Of a stretch of 36,639 bases of DNA, positions 19,905-30,165 are shown in pieces (within the stretch, counting starts at the first letter, position 1; every line of letters begins with the position of its first letter). Position numbers and translations under genes: made by a program. The DNA is from Magnetococcales bacterium (lineage in GTDB: Bacteria; Pseudomonadota; Magnetococcia; Magnetococcales; JADFZT01), in contig JADFZT010000047.1 of NCBI GenBank assembly GCA_015232395.1, positions 1 to 36,639 of the forward strand, given 5' to 3'. The notes beneath the pieces were generated by a model that had not been told where the DNA came from, ran no database searches, and saw only the letters and a program-made list of their open reading frames with translations.

Positions 19905-20364
19905 GGCAATATATCGATCCAGTGGAGGTGTTGAAATACTGGTTGAAAAGGGTATGCGATAAAGATGATCGTAGGATTTTCCAGGCTCCCCCCCGGTCAA
20001 ACCGACTGATTGCGACCGATAATATCCCATATCCCCTGGAAGTAACAGCAAATCCAGCCTTTTTACTTCAAGAGCTGTTTAAAAAAATATTTTCACCCCT
20101 CAGCTGGACATAACCCACCGCCAAGAATCCGACTCCCCTCCCCCCGCCGCCTCATCACACATTGACCCAAAAAATACCGGAAGCAATCCCCCCGAGCCCA
20201 GCCTACATGCCAGCCCACACCGATCCACACGCCTCCCTCCCAGGCAGCCCTCATATTGTGTTGGCATGATTCCTGCTGTAAGTGCCTCATCAAAACATCG
20301 TTTTTGAGATGATACTAAAGAGGCTCGCCAAAGAACTTTTAATTCGTTCTCAATGGATTGGGAC
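19905..20364. promoter_or_regulatory. Divergent control region between the chemoreceptor and the surface-protein operon
   Basis: 460 bases between two divergent transcription units. The clear element is the sigma-54-type site at 20262-20277 facing the surface-protein operon. Open frames here overlap and show no known motif. The chemoreceptor may start further upstream (20051), which would take part of this region. Confidence 0.5.
20262..20277 (+). promoter_or_regulatory. Sigma-54 (RpoN)-type promoter
   Basis: TGGCATGATTCCTGCT matches the RpoN consensus TGGCAYR-N4-TTGCW except for one base (C for T before TGC). GG (20263-20264) and GC (20275-20276) are exactly 10 bases apart. The start of transcription would fall near 20288, leaving a ~77-base leader before the small exported protein at 20365. 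An upstream activator site was not identified. Confidence 0.6.
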
Positions 20365-20712
20365 ATGAACAACACTCAAAACAAAATCAAGATGATGCTC
20401 GCAGCCACCCTGGTCGGCACCGTCATCACCGCCAATACCGCCAAATCGGATGTGCTGTTCACAGTACCTGCGGTGGCGACTGTAGCCGGTATCGCCGCCT
20501 ACTCGGGGTATCAATTTGGGGAGCAGCTGTTGAACGGCACCCAGCAGCATTGTCAGGCGGTCTCTTACCAGAGCGATCCGGTCTGCCAAAACGTCGAACA
20601 TCTCCCGGAGCCCTACTCCCGCTCAGCCCTTCCCGACGTACCACCACCGGTACTCTTTTCGCCTGGTCAAAACCCACAGGCGGGTACAGATCAGCTGCGA
20701 TTTTATCGGTAA
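20365..20712 (+). CDS. Small exported protein of unknown function
   Basis: A 115-residue protein with an N-terminal signal segment (basic MNNTQNKIK, hydrophobic MMLAATLVGTVI, small residues to about TAKS). A second hydrophobic stretch (VPAVATVAGIAAYSGYQF) follows, then a Pro-rich C-terminus with two Cys residues. I do not recognise the family. An in-frame ATG lies 12 bases earlier (20353); the one at 20365 has GGA at a normal distance. It is the first gene after the sigma-54-type promoter and ends just before the giant surface protein, so it is probably part of the same surface-protein operon. Confidence 0.7.
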   Translation: MNNTQNKIKMMLAATLVGTVITANTAKSDVLFTVPAVATVAGIAAYSGYQFGEQLLNGTQQHCQAVSYQSDPVCQNVEHLPEPYSRSALPDVPPPVLFSPGQNPQAGTDQLRFYR

Positions 20713-20790
20713 GGCCCGACTCATTCCCATCTGGATATGAGCGGTTCCCAATCAAGCATTCAACGCTTTTTAAAAAAAGACGTGACGACC

Positions 20791-23700
20791 ATGAATAAAC
20801 GACTCGGACCTGTTTTTTCCGCCCTTTTCGCCGCCTCCATCTTTGCCACCGGCCCGGTTCAGGCAGAAGCCCCGGTGGCTTCAGCGCTGGCTACCTTGGA
20901 TGGCAGCATTGTCGAATTGGTTGGCGAGGGGGATGCCGTCACACTGGACGCCTCCACCTCCACCGATATCGACGACGACATCGCCACCTATTATTGGCAA
21001 CAAACCGAAGGGAGCAGCGTCACCCTGGATGACGCCAACGCCGAAACAGCCGGCTTCACCGCTCCCACCGATCTGGGGACGGGAGAGGCACTGATCTTTT
21101 GGCTTACGGTCACCGACAACGAAGGTGACACGGACATGGACATGGTGATTGTCAATGTCTCGGATGAGAGACCCCCTCCCACTGCCGAGGCAGGCCCCAC
21201 CCAGACTGTTTCGGAAGGGGAGAGCGTCACCCTCTACGGCTCCGGCTCCCGGGATGAAAACAGCGACATAGAGAGCTACTCCTGGAACCAGATTTCCGGC
21301 CCCTCGGTAACCCTCTCCAGCTCCACCGCCGCTGACCCTACCTTCACCAGCCCCGAGCTGGAAGATGGCTCCACCTCCCTGGTGTTCCAGCTGACGGTAA
21401 CCAATGACTACGGCCTCAAATCCAACGATGAAGTAATCATCAACCTGGTCAATCTCAATCAAGCCCCATCCGCCGATGCCGGAGACGACCAGAGCGCCGA
21501 TGCCGGGGACACCGTCACCTTGGACGGCAGTGGCTCCAGCGACAACGAAGATGCCTCGATTACCTACGTCTGGAGTCAGACCGCAGGCACCAGCGTCACC
21601 CTGGACAGCCTCAACACAGCCTCCCCCACTTTCACCGCCCCCACCACCGATAGCGACGGCGAGGCCCTGCGCTTCAGCCTGAAAGTGTCCGACAGTGAAG
21701 GACTGTCTGACATCGACACGGTGATCGTCAACATTACCGGTGACGACCAAGTCCCCATTGCTGATGCCGGTGAAACGCAAACCGTCAACGAAGGGGAGAT
21801 CGTCACCCTGGATGGCTCAGGCTCCCTGGATGAGGAAGATCAGATCACCCTCTACAGCTGGGAGCAGACCGACGGCCCTTTCGTACTCCTGGACACGCCG
21901 GATAGCGCCACAACCACCTTCACCGCCCCCTTTATCAGCGGCTCCACCACCTCTTTTACCTTTGAGTTGGATATCACCGACGCTGCTGGTTTGTCAGACA
22001 CCGATATCGTCACAATCAACATTACCGATACCAACGAAGCCCCCATTGCCGAAGCCATGGTGCTGGATGCCAATGAGGTGATCGTTACCCAATCCGTAGC
22101 AGAAGGAACCACCATCACCCTGGATGCAGGGGCTTCCAGCGATACCGAAGGCAATGTGGCCAGCTACAGCTGGGTTCAAACCAGCGGCACCAGCGTCACC
22201 CTCTCCAGCAACTCCGAAGCCCTGGTCACCTTTGACACCCCCACCGATACCGATGACGGCGAAGCCCTCACCTTTGAGCTCACCGTAACCGACGCCGATG
22301 GGAAGAGCGATGCCCTGACGGTTTATGTCAACGTTTCCGAATCAGACGAGGCCCCCACCGCTGAAGCCGGTCCCAATCAGAGCGTCATCGAAGGCGATGC
22401 CGTCACCTTGAACGGCAGCGGCTCCCGGGATGGTGAAGGGAATATTGCCAGCTACCAGTGGACTCAGCTGGAAGGCCCCACAGCGGTCATTTCCGATACA
22501 TCCGCTGCCAGCCCCACCTTCACCGCCCCCGCAGCCGATGCCGAAATGGGAGCCATGCTGTTTCAACTGGTGGTGACCGATGAAACCGGCCTGATGGATC
22601 AGGACTGGGTGATCATCAACATCACCGACGACAACACCGCCCCCCATGCCGATGCCGGTTCCGACCAGACCGTGGCCAGCGAAACCGCTGTGACCCTCTC
22701 TGGAAGCAACTCTGGAGATGCTGACGGGGCCGTGGTTGAATTCCAATGGATTCAAATGAGCGGCCCCCTGGTGGACCTCTCCGATCCCACCGACATGGAC
22801 CCCTCCTTTGTCAGCCCCACCATCAGCGGCAACGGAGCTTCATTGACCTTCATGGTGATCGTCTCCGACAGCGACGGACTGGCCGACTATGATTCGGTCG
22901 TGGTCAATGTGACCGATGGCGATGTCTCTCCTCCCGAGGCTGATGCTGGTGCGGAGCAGAGTGTCGATGAAGGGGAGAGTGTCACCCTGAACGGCTCCAA
23001 CTCCCGAGATAACGAAGATGACGTGGTGAGCTATAGCTGGGAACAGGTCAGTGGCCAGACAGTCACCCTTTCCGATGCCACCGACGCCAAACCCACTTTT
23101 ACCGCACCCGATGTCAGCACCGACGGTGAAGTGCTCACCTTTGATCTCACAGTGACCGACAGCGACGGGCTTTCGGGAAGCGATTCGGTGTTGGTTAACG
23201 TTTCCGAGAGCAACCAAGCCCCCATTGCCATCGTAGGATCCAGCGAAACAGGAAGCAACGTTGATATCCAAACAGCTGAGGGAGGTAGCTTCGTCACCCT
23301 GAATGCCTCCCACTCATCAGATCCCGAAGGAGGTGAACTCACATTTCAGTGGATCCAAACGATGGGTGATACGGTCATTCTGGCTGACCCAACGGCCTCA
23401 CAGACCATTTTCTCTGCACCGTTAATTACCGATAGCAGCCTCTCTTTGGCCTTTTCGGTGACCGTCACCGATAGCGCCGGGCTCTCTGCCACCGGATCAT
23501 CCACCATCAATATCACCGATGGGAGCAACAACGCTCCCACCGCCTATGCCGGTAGCGATCAAGCCGCTGAAGAAGGCAGTACCGTCACCCTGGATGGCTC
23601 CGGCTCCAGCGATGAAGAGGATGGGGCCAACATCACCTATGCCTGGAGCGCTTCCCTGGCGGATGTGACCTTTTCCGATCCCGCTGCGGCCAACCCCACT

Positions 23701-26700
23701 TTTGTAGCCCCCACGATCAGTGATGAAACAGCCATCACCATCACCCTGGAAGTGACCGACACCACCGGGCTTAAAAGTGCCGATCAGATGATCGTGACTG
23801 TCTCTGACAACGGCCAAAGCGCAGGAAGCTTTACCGTGGATCTGCCGGATGACGCCCTCATCATCACCTCCGCCAGCACCGATCAGGATCCCATCGCCAT
23901 CGGCAGCCTGACCGGTGGCAGCCTGGTGAATCTGGCGACCGTGCACCAATCCACCCTGACCACCGATACCGACAACCAACCCTCGGAGATGCCCTACGGC
24001 CTGATCGATTTTTCCATCAAGTCCACCGACGCCGAAGGGGTGGCCACCATGACCGTCTACCTCCCCTCCCCGGCCAACTCCGATATGAGCTGGTACAAGT
24101 ATAATGAAACCACCGGCTGGAGCGATTATGGAGATAATGTGGTCTTCAACGACGAACGCACAGCGGTCACCATCACCCTGACCGACGGCGGTACGGGTGA
24201 CGATGACGCCACCGTCAACGGCCTCATCGTCGATCCCTCGGGACTCGGTTCCGCCAAGGTCGCTGCTGAAGAAGCTGCCGTGGTCGCTGCGGTCACCGTG
24301 ACAGCCACCGAATCTTCCACCATCACCGATGTGGTGGCGAGCGGGGATGTGGTCACCCTGGACGCCTCCGGCTCCTCCAGCACCAACGGCGACATCACCA
24401 CCTATGCCTGGACCCAGACCGAAGGGGATAGCGTCACCCTCTCCGATTCCGCTGCAGCCATCGTCACCTTTACCGCCCCATCGGATGTGGGCACCGGCAC
24501 GGTCCTCACCTTTGAGCTGACCGTCACCGACGATACCGATGAGAGCGCCACCACCACGGTAGTGATCAATGTTTCCGAACTCACCGAAACCCCCACCGCC
24601 GAAGCAGGCCCCACCCAGACCGTGGAAGAGGGTGAGACCGTGACTCTCTACGGCTCGGGATCGTGGGATACCCAGGGCGCCATCGCAAGCTACGCCTGGA
24701 CCCAGATCGATGGCCCGGCTGTGACCCTTTCGGATGCCACCGCAGCAGAGCCCACCTTTGTCAGCCCCACCCTCACCGGCGCCAGCAGCTCGCTGACCTT
24801 CCAGTTGATGGTGACCGACAGCGACGGGCTGGTCAATTCCGATACGGTGATCATCAACGTCACCGACCTCAATCAATCCCCCAGCGCCGATGCCGGAGAG
24901 AACCAGAATGTCAATGAAGGGGATACCGTCACCCTGGACGCCAGCGCCTCCTGGGATACCGACGACACCACAGTCAGCTACTACTGGACCCAAACCTCAG
25001 GCCCGGCAGTGGTCTTGAGTGATCGCAGCGCCAGCCAGCCCACTTTCAGCGCACCAACCACCGACGACAACGGTGCCTCCTTGGGCTTCACCCTGCAGGT
25101 TTCCGACAGCGAAGGACTCTCCACCACCGATACGGTGATCATCAACGTGATTGCCAATAACCAAGCCCCCAATGCCGAAGCCGGATATGATGAGACGATT
25201 GACGAAGAGACCGTCGTCACCCTCAATGCCGCCTTCTCCTGGGATGCCGAAGCGGATATTGCCAGCTACAGCTGGGAACAAACTTCCGGCCCCTATGTCG
25301 CCATCACCAACCCCGAAAGCGCCGAGGCTTCCTTTACCACACCCGGAGTCAATAGTGCCGGCGCCTCGTTGATCTTTGAACTCACCGTCACCGATGCCGC
25401 CGGGTTGACCGACAGCGACACCATCACCATCACCGTCGCCGACACCAATGAACTCCCCGAAGCCTCGGTCACCGCCTCTACGCCCGACTACACCATTATC
25501 ACCAATACCGTAGACGAGGGAGAAGTGGTCACCCTGGATGGCTCCGGCTCTTCGGATGCCGAAGGCACCATCGTCTCCTACGCCTGGACCCAGATCGACG
25601 GCACCACGGTAACCCTCTCCAATGCAGATACTTCCATTGCCACCTTCACCGCCCCGGACAGCGTAGGAGATGGCGTCGCCCTGACCTTTGAGCTGACAGT
25701 GACCGACAGCGAAGGCGAAACCGATACCGTGACGGTTATCATCAACGTCTCCCAGGTCAACCAGGCCCCCACCGCCGAAGCCGGCCCCAGCCAATCTGTT
25801 GAAGAGGGTGAAACCATCACCTTGAATGGTGCTGGATCGTGGGATACCGAGGGAGATATCGCCAGCTACGAATGGACCCAGACCGAAGGGCCCTATGTAA
25901 TCCTTTCCGATGCCAACGACGATAGCCCCACTTTCACGGCCCCGCTCCTCACCACCAGTGATACATCGACCTCCCTCACCTTCCAGCTGGAAGTGGCGGA
26001 TGCCGATGGCCTCCTGGCCCGGGATACGGTGATCATCAATGTCACCGACCTCAATAACGCCCCCAACGCCGATGCCGGATCTGACCAGACCGTGGATGAA
26101 GCCGAAATTGTCACCCTCTCCGGTGCCAACTCCTGGGATACCGAAGAGGTGCTGACCGACTTTCACTGGACCCAGACCAGCGGGCCTTATGTGGCACTCT
26201 CCGATCGCACCGCCATGGAGCCCACCTTTACCGCACCCGACGTCACCGGCACCGGCAAATCTTTGGGCTTTACCCTGAAGGTGACTGACAGCGAAGGGTT
26301 GAGCGACACGGATACCGTGGCCATCAATGTCACCACCAGCGATGATCAAGCCCCCGTGGCCGAAGCCGGGGCCAGCCAAACCGTTGAAGAAGGGGATTCC
26401 GTCACCCTGAATGGTTCCAACTCCTGGGATGATCAAGCCGCCGTTTCGGCCTACAGCTGGGAGCAGACCAGTGGACCCTATGTGCAGCTTTCCGATGCCA
26501 CCGACGCCCGCCCCACCTTCACCGCACCCAATGTCACCGATGACGGCTCCTCTCTCATCTTTGAGCTGACGGTGACCGACAATGGTGGTTTGACCGGCAG
26601 TGATTCGGTGATCATCAACGTCACCCAAACCAACCAGGCGCCCACAGCCAGCGTGAATGAGAGCAGCATCGATGTGCAAGAGGGCTCCACCGTCGCCCTG

Positions 26701-27882
26701 GATGCCAGCGACTCCACCGACGTGGATGGCGACGACATCACCTTCGCCTGGACCCAGACCGACGGCACCACCGTCACCCTGGCCGATGCAACAGAATCCA
26801 TTACGACCTTCACAGCACCCACCATCGATGAAGACAGCGAATCCCTCTCCTTCACGGTGACAGTAACCGACAGCCAGGGGCTTGCAGCCAGCAGCACGGT
26901 GGTGGTCAATGTATCCGACACCAACACCACCCCCGAGGCCGATGCCGGGGATGATCAGAGCGCCGAAGAGGGCAGCACTGTCACCCTCGATGGCTCCGGC
27001 TCCACCGATGCCGAGGACGGCTCTGCCATCACCTACGCCTGGAGCGCTTCCTCTTCCAGTATCACCTTTTCCGATCCCACCAGCGCCACCCCCACCTTTG
27101 TCGCCCCTTCGGTGAGTGACGATGAGGAGATCACCATTACTCTGGAAGTGACCGACAGCAACGACCTGGTGGGTTCTGACATGGTGGTCATCACCGTGAC
27201 CGACAACGGCGTGGCTAAAACCGATGTCTCCGAAAATCTCCCGGATAGCGCCTATCTGATTGAATCCGCCAGTTCCGACCGCACTCCTCTGGGTATCGGT
27301 GACATCTCCGGCGGCAACATGGTGGCGTTCGATACCGTGCACCCCTCGACCCTCACCACCGACACCGCCAACCTGCCAGCGGAGATGCCTTACGGCTTGA
27401 TCGACTTTGAGATCAAGGTAACCCAGGCGGATGGTCTGGCCACCTTTACGGTCTATTTCCCTGAAGCGGTTTCCGAGGAGATGAGCTGGTGGAAGTATGA
27501 CGCGACCAGTGGCTGGAGCGAATATGACAATGTGGTCTTCAACGACGAGCGGACTGAAATGATTGTCACCTTGGTGGATGGCGGTATCGGTGACGATGAC
27601 GACACCATCAACGGCATCATCGTCGATCCGGCCGGACTGGGCACCAAGACCACCGATACCACCACCGATACGACGACGGATACCACGACGGATACCACGA
27701 CGGATACCACCACCGACACCACCAGCAGCAGCGATTCTGGCAGCTCCGACACGGTGGTGGGTTGCACCTTGAACCCCAACGCCCCTGGCAACGATCCCAT
27801 GTTGCCGATGATGGTGATTCTCTCCTCCTTCTACCTCCTACGCCGCCGGTTTGGGTTTGGCGGCATGGGAGAGGATAAGTAG
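20791..27882 (+). CDS. Giant PKD/Ig-repeat surface protein, duplicated architecture, JDVT-CTERM-type tail
   Basis: A ~2,363-residue exported protein. It has a signal peptide (MNKRLGPVFSALFAASIFA, cleavage near VQAEA). Next come two parallel blocks, each of ten ~95-residue PKD/Ig-like repeats closed by a choice-of-anchor-U-type domain (MPYGLIDF, WYKY or WWKY, VVFNDERT, DGGxGDDD, IVDPxGLG). The typical repeat reads AxADAGxxQxVxEGxxVTLxGSxS, then SWxQTSGPxVxLSDxxxxxPTFTAP, then LTFxLTVTDSxGLxxxDxVIINV. After block two there is a Thr-Asp repeat, and then a sorting tail: GCTLNP with Cys, DPMLP, a hydrophobic helix and RRR. It is strongly acidic and probably a surface adhesin or matrix protein. The ATG at 20791 gives the best signal peptide; 20737 is an upstream in-frame alternative. 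The adjacent protease gene is the likely processing partner. Confidence 0.93.
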   Translation: MNKRLGPVFSALFAASIFATGPVQAEAPVASALATLDGSIVELVGEGDAVTLDASTSTDIDDDIATYYWQQTEGSSVTLDDANAETAGFTAPTDLGTGEALIFWLTVTDNEGDTDMDMVIVNVSDERPPPTAEAGPTQTVSEGESVTLYGSGSRDENSDIESYSWNQISGPSVTLSSSTAADPTFTSPELEDGSTSLVFQLTVTNDYGLKSNDEVIINLVNLNQAPSADAGDDQSADAGDTVTLDGSGSSDNEDASITYVWSQTAGTSVTLDSLNTASPTFTAPTTDSDGEALRFSLKVSDSEGLSDIDTVIVNITGDDQVPIADAGETQTVNEGEIVTLDGSGSLDEEDQITLYSWEQTDGPFVLLDTPDSATTTFTAPFISGSTTSFTFELDITDAAGLSDTDIVTINITDTNEAPIAEAMVLDANEVIVTQSVAEGTTITLDAGASSDTEGNVASYSWVQTSGTSVTLSSNSEALVTFDTPTDTDDGEALTFELTVTDADGKSDALTVYVNVSESDEAPTAEAGPNQSVIEGDAVTLNGSGSRDGEGNIASYQWTQLEGPTAVISDTSAASPTFTAPAADAEMGAMLFQLVVTDETGLMDQDWVIINITDDNTAPHADAGSDQTVASETAVTLSGSNSGDADGAVVEFQWIQMSGPLVDLSDPTDMDPSFVSPTISGNGASLTFMVIVSDSDGLADYDSVVVNVTDGDVSPPEADAGAEQSVDEGESVTLNGSNSRDNEDDVVSYSWEQVSGQTVTLSDATDAKPTFTAPDVSTDGEVLTFDLTVTDSDGLSGSDSVLVNVSESNQAPIAIVGSSETGSNVDIQTAEGGSFVTLNASHSSDPEGGELTFQWIQTMGDTVILADPTASQTIFSAPLITDSSLSLAFSVTVTDSAGLSATGSSTINITDGSNNAPTAYAGSDQAAEEGSTVTLDGSGSSDEEDGANITYAWSASLADVTFSDPAAANPTFVAPTISDETAITITLEVTDTTGLKSADQMIVTVSDNGQSAGSFTVDLPDDALIITSASTDQDPIAIGSLTGGSLVNLATVHQSTLTTDTDNQPSEMPYGLIDFSIKSTDAEGVATMTVYLPSPANSDMSWYKYNETTGWSDYGDNVVFNDERTAVTITLTDGGTGDDDATVNGLIVDPSGLGSAKVAAEEAAVVAAVTVTATESSTITDVVASGDVVTLDASGSSSTNGDITTYAWTQTEGDSVTLSDSAAAIVTFTAPSDVGTGTVLTFELTVTDDTDESATTTVVINVSELTETPTAEAGPTQTVEEGETVTLYGSGSWDTQGAIASYAWTQIDGPAVTLSDATAAEPTFVSPTLTGASSSLTFQLMVTDSDGLVNSDTVIINVTDLNQSPSADAGENQNVNEGDTVTLDASASWDTDDTTVSYYWTQTSGPAVVLSDRSASQPTFSAPTTDDNGASLGFTLQVSDSEGLSTTDTVIINVIANNQAPNAEAGYDETIDEETVVTLNAAFSWDAEADIASYSWEQTSGPYVAITNPESAEASFTTPGVNSAGASLIFELTVTDAAGLTDSDTITITVADTNELPEASVTASTPDYTIITNTVDEGEVVTLDGSGSSDAEGTIVSYAWTQIDGTTVTLSNADTSIATFTAPDSVGDGVALTFELTVTDSEGETDTVTVIINVSQVNQAPTAEAGPSQSVEEGETITLNGAGSWDTEGDIASYEWTQTEGPYVILSDANDDSPTFTAPLLTTSDTSTSLTFQLEVADADGLLARDTVIINVTDLNNAPNADAGSDQTVDEAEIVTLSGANSWDTEEVLTDFHWTQTSGPYVALSDRTAMEPTFTAPDVTGTGKSLGFTLKVTDSEGLSDTDTVAINVTTSDDQAPVAEAGASQTVEEGDSVTLNGSNSWDDQAAVSAYSWEQTSGPYVQLSDATDARPTFTAPNVTDDGSSLIFELTVTDNGGLTGSDSVIINVTQTNQAPTASVNESSIDVQEGSTVALDASDSTDVDGDDITFAWTQTDGTTVTLADATESITTFTAPTIDEDSESLSFTVTVTDSQGLAASSTVVVNVSDTNTTPEADAGDDQSAEEGSTVTLDGSGSTDAEDGSAITYAWSASSSSITFSDPTSATPTFVAPSVSDDEEITITLEVTDSNDLVGSDMVVITVTDNGVAKTDVSENLPDSAYLIESASSDRTPLGIGDISGGNMVAFDTVHPSTLTTDTANLPAEMPYGLIDFEIKVTQADGLATFTVYFPEAVSEEMSWWKYDATSGWSEYDNVVFNDERTEMIVTLVDGGIGDDDDTINGIIVDPAGLGTKTTDTTTDTTTDTTTDTTTDTTTDTTSSSDSGSSDTVVGCTLNPNAPGNDPMLPMMVILSSFYLLRRRFGFGGMGEDK
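20872..24249 (+). repeat. Block 1: ten PKD-like repeats plus anchor-U-type domain
   Basis: About 1,126 codons. Repeats 1-10 are followed by the domain from SAGSFTVDLP to IVDPSGLG. Repeat n here is most like repeat n of block 2; for example, both second repeats carry VTLYGSGS, both fifth repeats have a longer insert before VxEG, and both tenth repeats have ITYAWSAS instead of WxQTSG. Confidence 0.85.
24250..27642 (+). repeat. Block 2: ten PKD-like repeats plus anchor-U-type domain
   Basis: About 1,131 codons, collinear with block 1 through all ten repeats and ending with the domain from SENLPDSAYL to IVDPAGLG. Copies have diverged, so the duplication is not recent. Confidence 0.85.
27643..27725 (+). 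repeat. 12-bp microsatellite encoding Thr-Thr-Asp-Thr
   Basis: A run of GATACCACGACG-type 12-bp units encodes the TDTT repeats that link the last domain to the sorting tail. Unit length is a multiple of three, so slippage changes stalk length but not frame. Confidence 0.85.
27760..27879 (+). other. C-terminal sorting tail (JDVT-CTERM type)
   Basis: The last 40 residues: GCTLNP with Cys (codon 27763-27765), NDPMLP, a hydrophobic helix of about 13 residues, then Arg-Arg-Arg and a short tail. Cys / Asp-Pro-x-Leu-Pro / helix / Arg cluster fits CTERM tails of the JDVT-CTERM kind, which are processed by a CAAX-like glutamic protease. Assignment to this subtype is from memory of the pattern. Confidence 0.7.
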
Positions 27883-27897
27883 AGTCGATTGTGATCC

Positions 27898-28386
27898 ATG
27901 CCGGTGAGCAGACAACCAGCCCGACCCCTTGACCGGCTAATCCCTGATCCCCATCTCTGGGGAGCGCTTTTGGCTCCCCTGGGGGTTTGGGGGTGGTTGT
28001 GGAGTCAGGGGGGGGGCGAACATTTCCAACCGGGGTGGATTTTGATCCATCCCGGTATTTTTTTGGGGCAGGCGCTTCTCTATCCGGTTTTGGAAGAGTT
28101 GGTTTTCCGGGGGATGATGCAAGGGGGGCTCAAACGAATCAAAAGGCTGCAAACGCCTCTCCTGGCAACTCTCCTCACCCCGGCCAACCTGCTCACCTCC
28201 ATCGCCTTCTCAATGGCTCACCTCTACCTCCGGGATCCCTGGACCGGGCTGATGGTATTTTTTCCCTCGCTCCTTTTCGGCCACTTCCGAGACCGCTACA
28301 ACCATCTCGCTCCCAGCATCGGACTGCATATTTTATTCAATGCAGGCTATTTTTGGCTTTTCTTCAATCCAGCCACCTTTGGCTGA
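27898..28386 (+). CDS. mrtJ: CPBP/CAAX-type intramembrane glutamic protease, MrtJ-like
   Basis: A small (162-residue) membrane protease with all three motifs of the ABI/CPBP family: EExxxR (Glu66, Glu67, Arg71 in LEELVFRG), FxxxH (Phe104, His108) and HxxxN (His144, Asn148). About four hydrophobic segments surround them. In CTERM systems such proteases cleave next to the C-terminal sorting helix of their substrates. It begins 15 bases after the stop of the giant protein bearing a JDVT-CTERM-type tail, so that protein is the obvious substrate. The gene symbol rests on this context as well as on the motifs. Confidence 0.8.
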   Translation: MPVSRQPARPLDRLIPDPHLWGALLAPLGVWGWLWSQGGGEHFQPGWILIHPGIFLGQALLYPVLEELVFRGMMQGGLKRIKRLQTPLLATLLTPANLLTSIAFSMAHLYLRDPWTGLMVFFPSLLFGHFRDRYNHLAPSIGLHILFNAGYFWLFFNPATFG

Positions 28387-29196: not shown

Positions 29197-30165
29197 TTAT
29201 TCGACCTCTTCAGCAGCGTTTTTGTTCATGTAGCCATAGACGCCCACGCCCACAGCAGCAGCACCCAACAGCAGCACCGGGCCCCAGGCACCAAGTCCCA
29301 GACCCAATCCCAGGCTGAGGCCGGAGCCGTTCCAGATGGTTCCGGAAGCACCTGCACCCTTTGCAGCAGCAGCTTTGGCAGCGGCTATCTTGGTGGGGAC
29401 GGCAGCTTTGGCGGCGGGAGCAGCAGCCTTGGCAGCAGGCGCAGCGGCTTTGGCGGCAGGAGCGGCAACCACGGGGGCGGTAGCGGCGGCAGCGGCGACC
29501 GGGGCAGCGGCGGAAGCCTTGGCAGCCGGGGTGAGCACGATCCACTTGCCAGCCTGTCCGGCAGCGATGGGGGCTTTGGAGATGGTGAAGGTTTTACCAA
29601 TCAAAGTTGCATTCTGCGCTGCGGTGGCGTTCATCTTGAGGGCATAAACCTGGGAGCCAGCCGTACCGGAAGCAGGCTTCAGGAAGAGCCAGCCCTTGGC
29701 CTTGGCGGCGCTCATGGGAGGCTTCATCACGGTGAAGGATTTTCCGGAGACCGCTTTGAGCTGGGCCATCTGCTGGGTGCCATCCAGCTCCATCATCACC
29801 ATTTGGCTGGCGGAGGCGGCTTTGGCGGCGGCTGCACCGGTTCCGGCGGCAGCAACAGCGGCCCCCTTGCCCGATGAGAGCACCAGCCATTTACCCGTAC
29901 CACCAATCACGGCGGGGGATTTACCGACTGTGAAGGTTTGGCCTGCCAACTTGGAGAGCTGGGCTACCTGCCGGGTGCCTTCGAGCTTGATGGCCACGGT
30001 GCCTTTACCGGCGGCTGTTCCGGCTGGATCCAAAAAGAGCCATTTGCCCAATCCCGGACCTGCCGAGGTGACTTTACCCACCGAATAGGATTTGCCAGCC
30101 AGCCCAGAGAGTTGGGTGGCTTGGGTTGCGCCTTCAATCTTGAACATCAACGTATTTGCTGCCAT
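29197..30165 (-). CDS. mamD: MamD/Mms6-like magnetosome protein
   Basis: A 322-residue protein of the MamD (Mms7)/Mms6 group, which sits on the magnetosome membrane and affects magnetite crystal growth. Four ~45-residue repeats occur at about 6-48, 57-98, 122-165 and 175-214. Each has the form (L/M)xGTxQxAQLxxLxGKxFTVxKxP then GKWLxL. An Ala/Pro/Lys linker (~215-272) follows with an APAAKA repeat, then GTIWNGSGLSLGLGLGLGAW, the Gly-Leu repeat typical of Mms6 and MamD, a membrane helix (~293-311) and a short acidic tail (AEEVE). GGAG lies 8 bases before the ATG. No other mam or mms gene is in the window. The symbol is assigned by architecture; mms6-like naming is also defensible. Confidence 0.85.
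   Translation of the reverse strand: MAANTLMFKIEGATQATQLSGLAGKSYSVGKVTSAGPGLGKWLFLDPAGTAAGKGTVAIKLEGTRQVAQLSKLAGQTFTVGKSPAVIGGTGKWLVLSSGKGAAVAAAGTGAAAAKAASASQMVMMELDGTQQMAQLKAVSGKSFTVMKPPMSAAKAKGWLFLKPASGTAGSQVYALKMNATAAQNATLIGKTFTISKAPIAAGQAGKWIVLTPAAKASAAAPVAAAAATAPVVAAPAAKAAAPAAKAAAPAAKAAVPTKIAAAKAAAAKGAGASGTIWNGSGLSLGLGLGLGAWGPVLLLGAAAVGVGVYGYMNKNAAEEVE

Follow-up and report, generated by a model that had tools for sequence, protein, structure and literature searches.

Among the systems that act on C-terminal sorting tails, the exosortase of PEP-CTERM proteins is unrelated to the CPBP-family proteases, and its substrates carry a different tail, marked by the PEP motif. In these PEP-CTERM systems, a target gene is known to be under RpoN control (PMC9850573). 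The MYXO-CTERM proteins are exported by Sec, retained by their tails, cut in a cysteine-dependent manner by the CPBP protease MrtX and carried to the surface by the type II secretion system (T2SS) (PMC11980579). Closest to the locus described here is JDVT-CTERM/MrtJ, summarised as a sporadic two-gene neighbourhood of beta- and gammaproteobacteria (PMC11980579, for Haft 2024, doi 10.1128/jb.00173-23). The requirements of myxosortase-type sorting beyond protease and substrate, and its regulation, constitute an open gap, and the literature searched yielded no report on the regulation of JDVT-CTERM.

We analysed a stretch of 36,639 nucleotides from a Magnetococcales bacterium, hereinafter the window. 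As in JDVT-CTERM/MrtJ, a single substrate with a Cys-DP-helix-Arg tail adjoins a CPBP-family protease in the window, both exceeding the cut-offs of the respective models (NF033191 and NF033192); the locus is thus a confirmed new member of this kind, and its substrate-protease pair is of an already published kind. Unlike the JDVT-CTERM/MrtJ loci as summarised in the above source, it belongs to the Magnetococcales and includes a further, third gene together with a sigma-54-like site, both of them conserved, and these are what is new here. With the MrtX/MYXO-CTERM system of Myxococcus xanthus it shares a cysteine-containing tripartite tail, a related CPBP protease and the presence of a T2SS; unlike the window MrtJ, MrtX is a longer protein that serves dozens of substrates genome-wide. 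With the PEP-CTERM/exosortase systems having RpoN-dependent target genes (PMC9850573) it shares a C-terminal sorting tail and sigma-54 control, the latter being predicted in our case. We consider it likely that the small gene, the giant gene and the protease gene form a three-gene operon that serves one giant protein, displayed at the surface and sorted by the mechanism proposed below. An operon of this sort, in which one protease serves one substrate, a third gene strictly co-occurs with the two and the promoter site is conserved, offers a small, testable version of the above gap. It also extends this sorting chemistry to magnetotactic bacteria, a largely uncultured group about whose surface adhesins little is known.

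The locus and its gene products

The features of the locus are as follows:

20262..20276 (+): predicted sigma-54 (-24/-12) promoter site TGGCATGATTCCTGC, GG-N10-GC, with 2 mismatches against the consensus TGGCACGNNNNTTGC
20365..20712 (+): small exported protein, 115 aa, retrieved by the profile of the small-protein family and by no Pfam or NCBIfam model
20737..27882 (+): giant JDVT-CTERM surface protein, 2381 aa, with NCBIfam and Pfam matches and an internal duplication
27760..27852 (+): JDVT-CTERM sorting tail within the giant (NF033191), with a whole-genome match at the same coordinates
27898..28386 (+): MrtJ-type glutamic intramembrane protease, 162 aa (NF033192), with EExxxR, H108 and HxxxN

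The three genes lie on the same strand, with a gap of about 25 nt between the small gene and the first ATG of the giant gene, and one of 15 nt between the giant and MrtJ genes. The giant ORF ends in GCTLNPNAPGNDPMLPMMVILSSFYLLRRRFGFGGMGEDK; near this extreme C-terminus lies the sorting tail GCTLNPNAPGNDPMLPMMVILSSFYLLRRR, comprising a cysteine, a DP motif, a hydrophobic stretch and then Arg-Arg-Arg. A prior reading of this DNA from its letters alone (the sequence-only reading) had recognised such a tail and proposed checking it and the protease against the CTERM models. Both exceed their cut-offs, the tail scoring 32.3 bits against NF033191 (cut-off 27), and 39.9 bits in the genome search. Its cysteine, C2343, is the sole one in the 2381-aa giant. 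The N-terminus, MNKRLGPVFSALFAASIFATGPVQAEA, is signal-peptide-like, as judged by eye and hydropathy alone, and a second in-frame ATG at 20791 opens straight into a signal-peptide-like stretch.

The giant contains around 20 PKD-like repeats and two choice-of-anchor U domains, and its 403 acidic and 35 basic residues give it a net charge of about -372. Residues 57-1172 align with residues 1195-2303 at 55% identity over 1118 positions, with one choice-of-anchor U domain near the end of each half and the sorting tail in the second half only. Since the halves align at this level and each has such a domain, the giant arose, on the strength of this alignment, from a shorter ancestor by duplication and fusion; the homologous giants of two related genomes, G029 and G028, are shorter (643 aa and about 816 aa, respectively). 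The identification of the giant as a JDVT-CTERM-type substrate stands, with the correction that the protein is duplicated in tandem and carries in its middle another choice-of-anchor U domain, which lacks a tail. Of the NCBIfam models, 'myxosortase-dependent M36' and 'rhombosortase-dependent M36' score highest on the giant; as these matches lie in its PKD-like repeat region and a Pfam peptidase domain was not found, we rejected M36 peptidase as a name for it.

The ORF at 27898-28386 scores 88.8 bits against the MrtJ model NF033192 (equivalog cut-off 75), and also matches the Rce1-like family PF02517 of Pfam. The MrtX, MrtC and MrtP models match it only far below their cut-offs, the next best being MrtP with 69.9 bits against a cut-off of 250. 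The three CPBP motifs that had been noticed in this 162-residue protein (EExxxR, H and HxxxN) are all present, and the catalytic-type residues E66/E67/R71, H108 and H144/N148 are invariant in the four homologues. A solved-structure search with the MrtJ profile returned nothing credible. Throughout the window genome we recovered a single MrtJ and a single JDVT-CTERM tail over the cut-off.

The small ORF extends from 20353 to 20712 (119 codons), but its homologues and their profile start at the ATG at 20365. The encoded protein has a signal peptide with predicted cleavage at AKS|D, a Gly-rich hydrophobic segment at approximately residues 30-50, a Cys-x10-Cys motif and a C-terminal Tyr-Arg. Its family comprises four proteins of 103-148 aa, which share a signal peptide ending in AKS, followed by [DE][VL][LV]FT and a hydrophobic, Gly-containing stretch, and also the terminal Tyr-Arg; Cys-x10-Cys is found in three of them. 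By eye, the AKS|[DE] junction looks suited to signal peptidase I. The small protein was matched by none of the Pfam and NCBIfam families, and a solved-structure search with its profile gave nothing credible. An AlphaFold model built from three sequences shows, at low confidence (pLDDT 56), two helices with the remainder mostly irregular.

Distribution of the three genes

We surveyed 48 Magnetococcales genomes, including the window genome (G000). MrtJ exceeds its cut-off in four of them (G000, G028, G029 and G039), and the JDVT tail does so in exactly the same four. The small-protein profile again retrieves these four alone, at E values from 1e-56 to 2e-16 with the next best at 0.13. Two independent four-of-48 sets would coincide with a chance of about 5e-6, a figure to be read with the caveat that genes in linkage do not vary independently. 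The order small gene, giant, MrtJ on one strand is seen in each of the three loci with continuous sequence, namely those of G000, G029 (L022) and G028 (L024), the giant and MrtJ genes overlapping by 4 bp in the last. In G039 the same order is spread over two contigs, with the small gene and the front half of the giant at the end of L041 and the tail and MrtJ on L023. The break falls inside the choice-of-anchor U region, and since the end of L041 and the start of L023 bear the same terminal repeat, this giant gene was probably interrupted by an insertion sequence. Thus, MrtJ adjoins the tail in every tail-bearing Magnetococcales genome, homologues of the giant without the neighbouring protease being what would have spoken against a dedicated pair. 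The proposed status of the small exported protein as an undescribed component likewise gains comparative support, as the protein is present in all four genomes with the pair and in none of the 44 others.

In the vicinity of the trio we noticed by eye an apparent tyrosine recombinase in G029 (L022 17584-18753, plus strand, about 6 kb from the trio) and an apparent CRISPR-Cas locus, with repeats before it, about 4 kb away in G028 (L024 4247-12638, minus strand). With such neighbours, the trio could travel in variable regions. A tree of the MrtJ proteins, which are short and divergent and of which two of the four from Magnetococcales were missing, is compatible with both a single acquisition and vertical descent.

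A search of 398 genomes of the phylum yielded no convincing homologue of the small protein beyond these four genomes, the further matches being at chance level (E at least 0.0018) and the top ones having internal stop codons. A pattern-limited scan of 84,980 species gave 134 pattern matches, among which there were two relatives, both from Magnetococcales MAGs (PDZX01000024 and JADGBT010000057). Likewise, 21 MrtJ loci from outside the Magnetococcales contained no homologue of the small protein, and the JDVT genes checked outside the order have scattered matches but no conserved sigma-54 site close upstream. As both are absent from these loci, the small protein and the site are dispensable for JDVT sorting in general. 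Moreover, the strict one-to-one pairing of the Magnetococcales is not universal, since a family of the same phylum (f18; G077, G167, G086, G265 and others) has up to four JDVT-CTERM tails per genome among the matches listed and one MrtJ, often apart from the substrates. This family represents a multi-substrate use of the JDVT-CTERM/MrtJ system. In two of its loci, a gene for an outer-membrane beta-barrel lies directly upstream of the JDVT gene (L078 8986-9606, minus strand; L082 2716-3369, plus strand), occupying the position of the Magnetococcales small protein, to which it is unrelated.

These patterns bear on what the small protein does. The pair might work as we propose while the small protein is unconnected with sorting. 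It would then be another component of the surface or matrix, encoded in the same operon and partnering the adhesin structurally. We regard this as a real possibility, if somewhat short of an even chance: much of the small protein is variable in sequence and has little predicted structure, sorting loci of other taxa manage without it, and the beta-barrels of L078 and L082 look as if lineages add their own exported partners. Nevertheless, its conserved parts are the N-terminal membrane-like segment and the Tyr-Arg end, which fit a membrane role at least equally well. In our view the small protein most likely serves the giant as a periplasmic partner bound to the membrane, or as an assembly factor.

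The sigma-54-like site and its surroundings

In the four trio loci we looked for GG-N10-GC in the upstream region that separates the small gene from the divergent gene, with P values obtained by dinucleotide shuffles of this region. In all four the best site lies on the strand of the trio, with 2 mismatches in three loci and 3 in one: TGGCATGATTCCTGC in the window (P 0.011), TGGCATTCCCCTTGC in G029 (P 0.0075), CGGCATTGCCTTTGC in G039 (P 0.083) and TGGCATTGCAATTGC in G028 (P 0.035). The product of the four values, 2e-7, is uncorrected for common descent and overstates the case, as the loci are related; as the loci number just four and two belong to the same genus, the conservation of the promoter is in part shared descent. 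The near-consensus RpoN site claimed in the sequence-only reading is indeed present in the window; taken alone it is weak (P about 0.01, one upstream region) and it stays a prediction, but its equivalents in all four trio loci lend comparative support to RpoN control as a property of the pair. RpoN itself (TIGR02395) exceeds its cut-off in all four genomes. That both the trio and the site, as the same reading had proposed to look for, recur in three other Magnetococcales indicates that the small protein and the putative promoter are part of the unit rather than accidents of one genome.

In G029, G039 and G028 the divergent gene codes for an XRE-type regulator, and two 17-bp palindromes, TCTnCG-N5-CGnAGA, flank the sigma-54-like site. 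One stops exactly 2 bp short of the first base of the site, and the other lies roughly 70-105 bp downstream (L022, L041 and L024). These six are the only exact copies in the 290 kb searched, with two relaxed matches elsewhere. The window, whose divergent gene encodes a methyl-accepting chemotaxis protein, has neither the XRE gene nor the palindromes in its upstream region and has kept the site. The exact 2-bp spacing from a palindrome beside a divergent XRE gene in three of the four loci raises the alternative that the GGCATT-N4-TTGC element is no sigma-54 promoter but belongs to an extended XRE operator or to the XRE gene's own promoter. We hold this to be unlikely, as the site faces the trio in the window although the XRE gene and palindrome are absent there, it agrees with the sigma-54 consensus in spacing and bases at all four loci, and there is no comparable site on the opposite strand. 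We thus retain the sigma-54 reading; the same proximity of site and palindrome beside the XRE gene in three loci suggests, as the simplest reading, dual control by sigma-54 activation and XRE repression, the latter added or lost in some lineages. By extension, and more tentatively, the small protein may be a dedicated third JDVT-CTERM sorting component, needed for the processing or surface assembly of the giant, in a unit switched by sigma-54 activation plus, in some lineages, XRE repression at operators flanking the promoter.

In the window, an imperfect palindrome, TCAAAACATCGTTTTTGA (20290-20307), lies shortly past the predicted -12 element, 28 bp downstream from the site's first base; it is possibly an operator for another regulator.

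A proposed route to the cell surface

Given the conserved site and the gene spacing, the sigma-54 holoenzyme would most likely transcribe the small gene, the giant and the protease together. The N-terminal signal peptide would direct the giant to export by Sec, and the C-terminal helix would keep it in the inner membrane, its Arg-rich end on the inner side. A housekeeping Lgt-like enzyme may then lipidate its one cysteine, MrtJ may remove the helix beside the lipidated cysteine, and the T2SS may carry the lipid-anchored giant to the cell surface, a route already proposed for the Myxococcus myxosortase. There, the acidic PKD-repeat rod might act as an adhesin or a surface-layer fibre. The small protein would be exported with the giant, with one hydrophobic, Gly-rich segment left after cleavage of its signal peptide. 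As GspD and Lgt exceed their cut-offs in all four trio genomes, a MYXO-CTERM-like route is open to the giant. The description of the locus as self-contained proved too strong, because Lgt-like lipidation and outer-membrane transport by the T2SS must be supplied from outside it, where both genes are found.

Alternatively, MrtJ might release the giant instead of anchoring it, cleavage without prior lipidation yielding a free extracellular matrix protein. Even for MYXO-CTERM proteins, lipidation of the cysteine, perhaps by Lgt, is so far a proposal (PMC11980579). Yet, in experiments with MrtX, C-terminal cleavage requires the cysteine and surface anchoring is impaired without the protease (PMC11980579), and the sorting cysteine is the only one kept in the entire giant; we accordingly deem release improbable and prefer the lipid-anchored giant.

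On the far side of the locus, 0.8 kb beyond MrtJ, the window codes for the magnetosome protein MamD (29197-30165, minus strand; NF040916, 306 bits). No magnetosome gene other than this was noticed in the window, and a second full-length MamD is encoded on contig C36 of the same genome.
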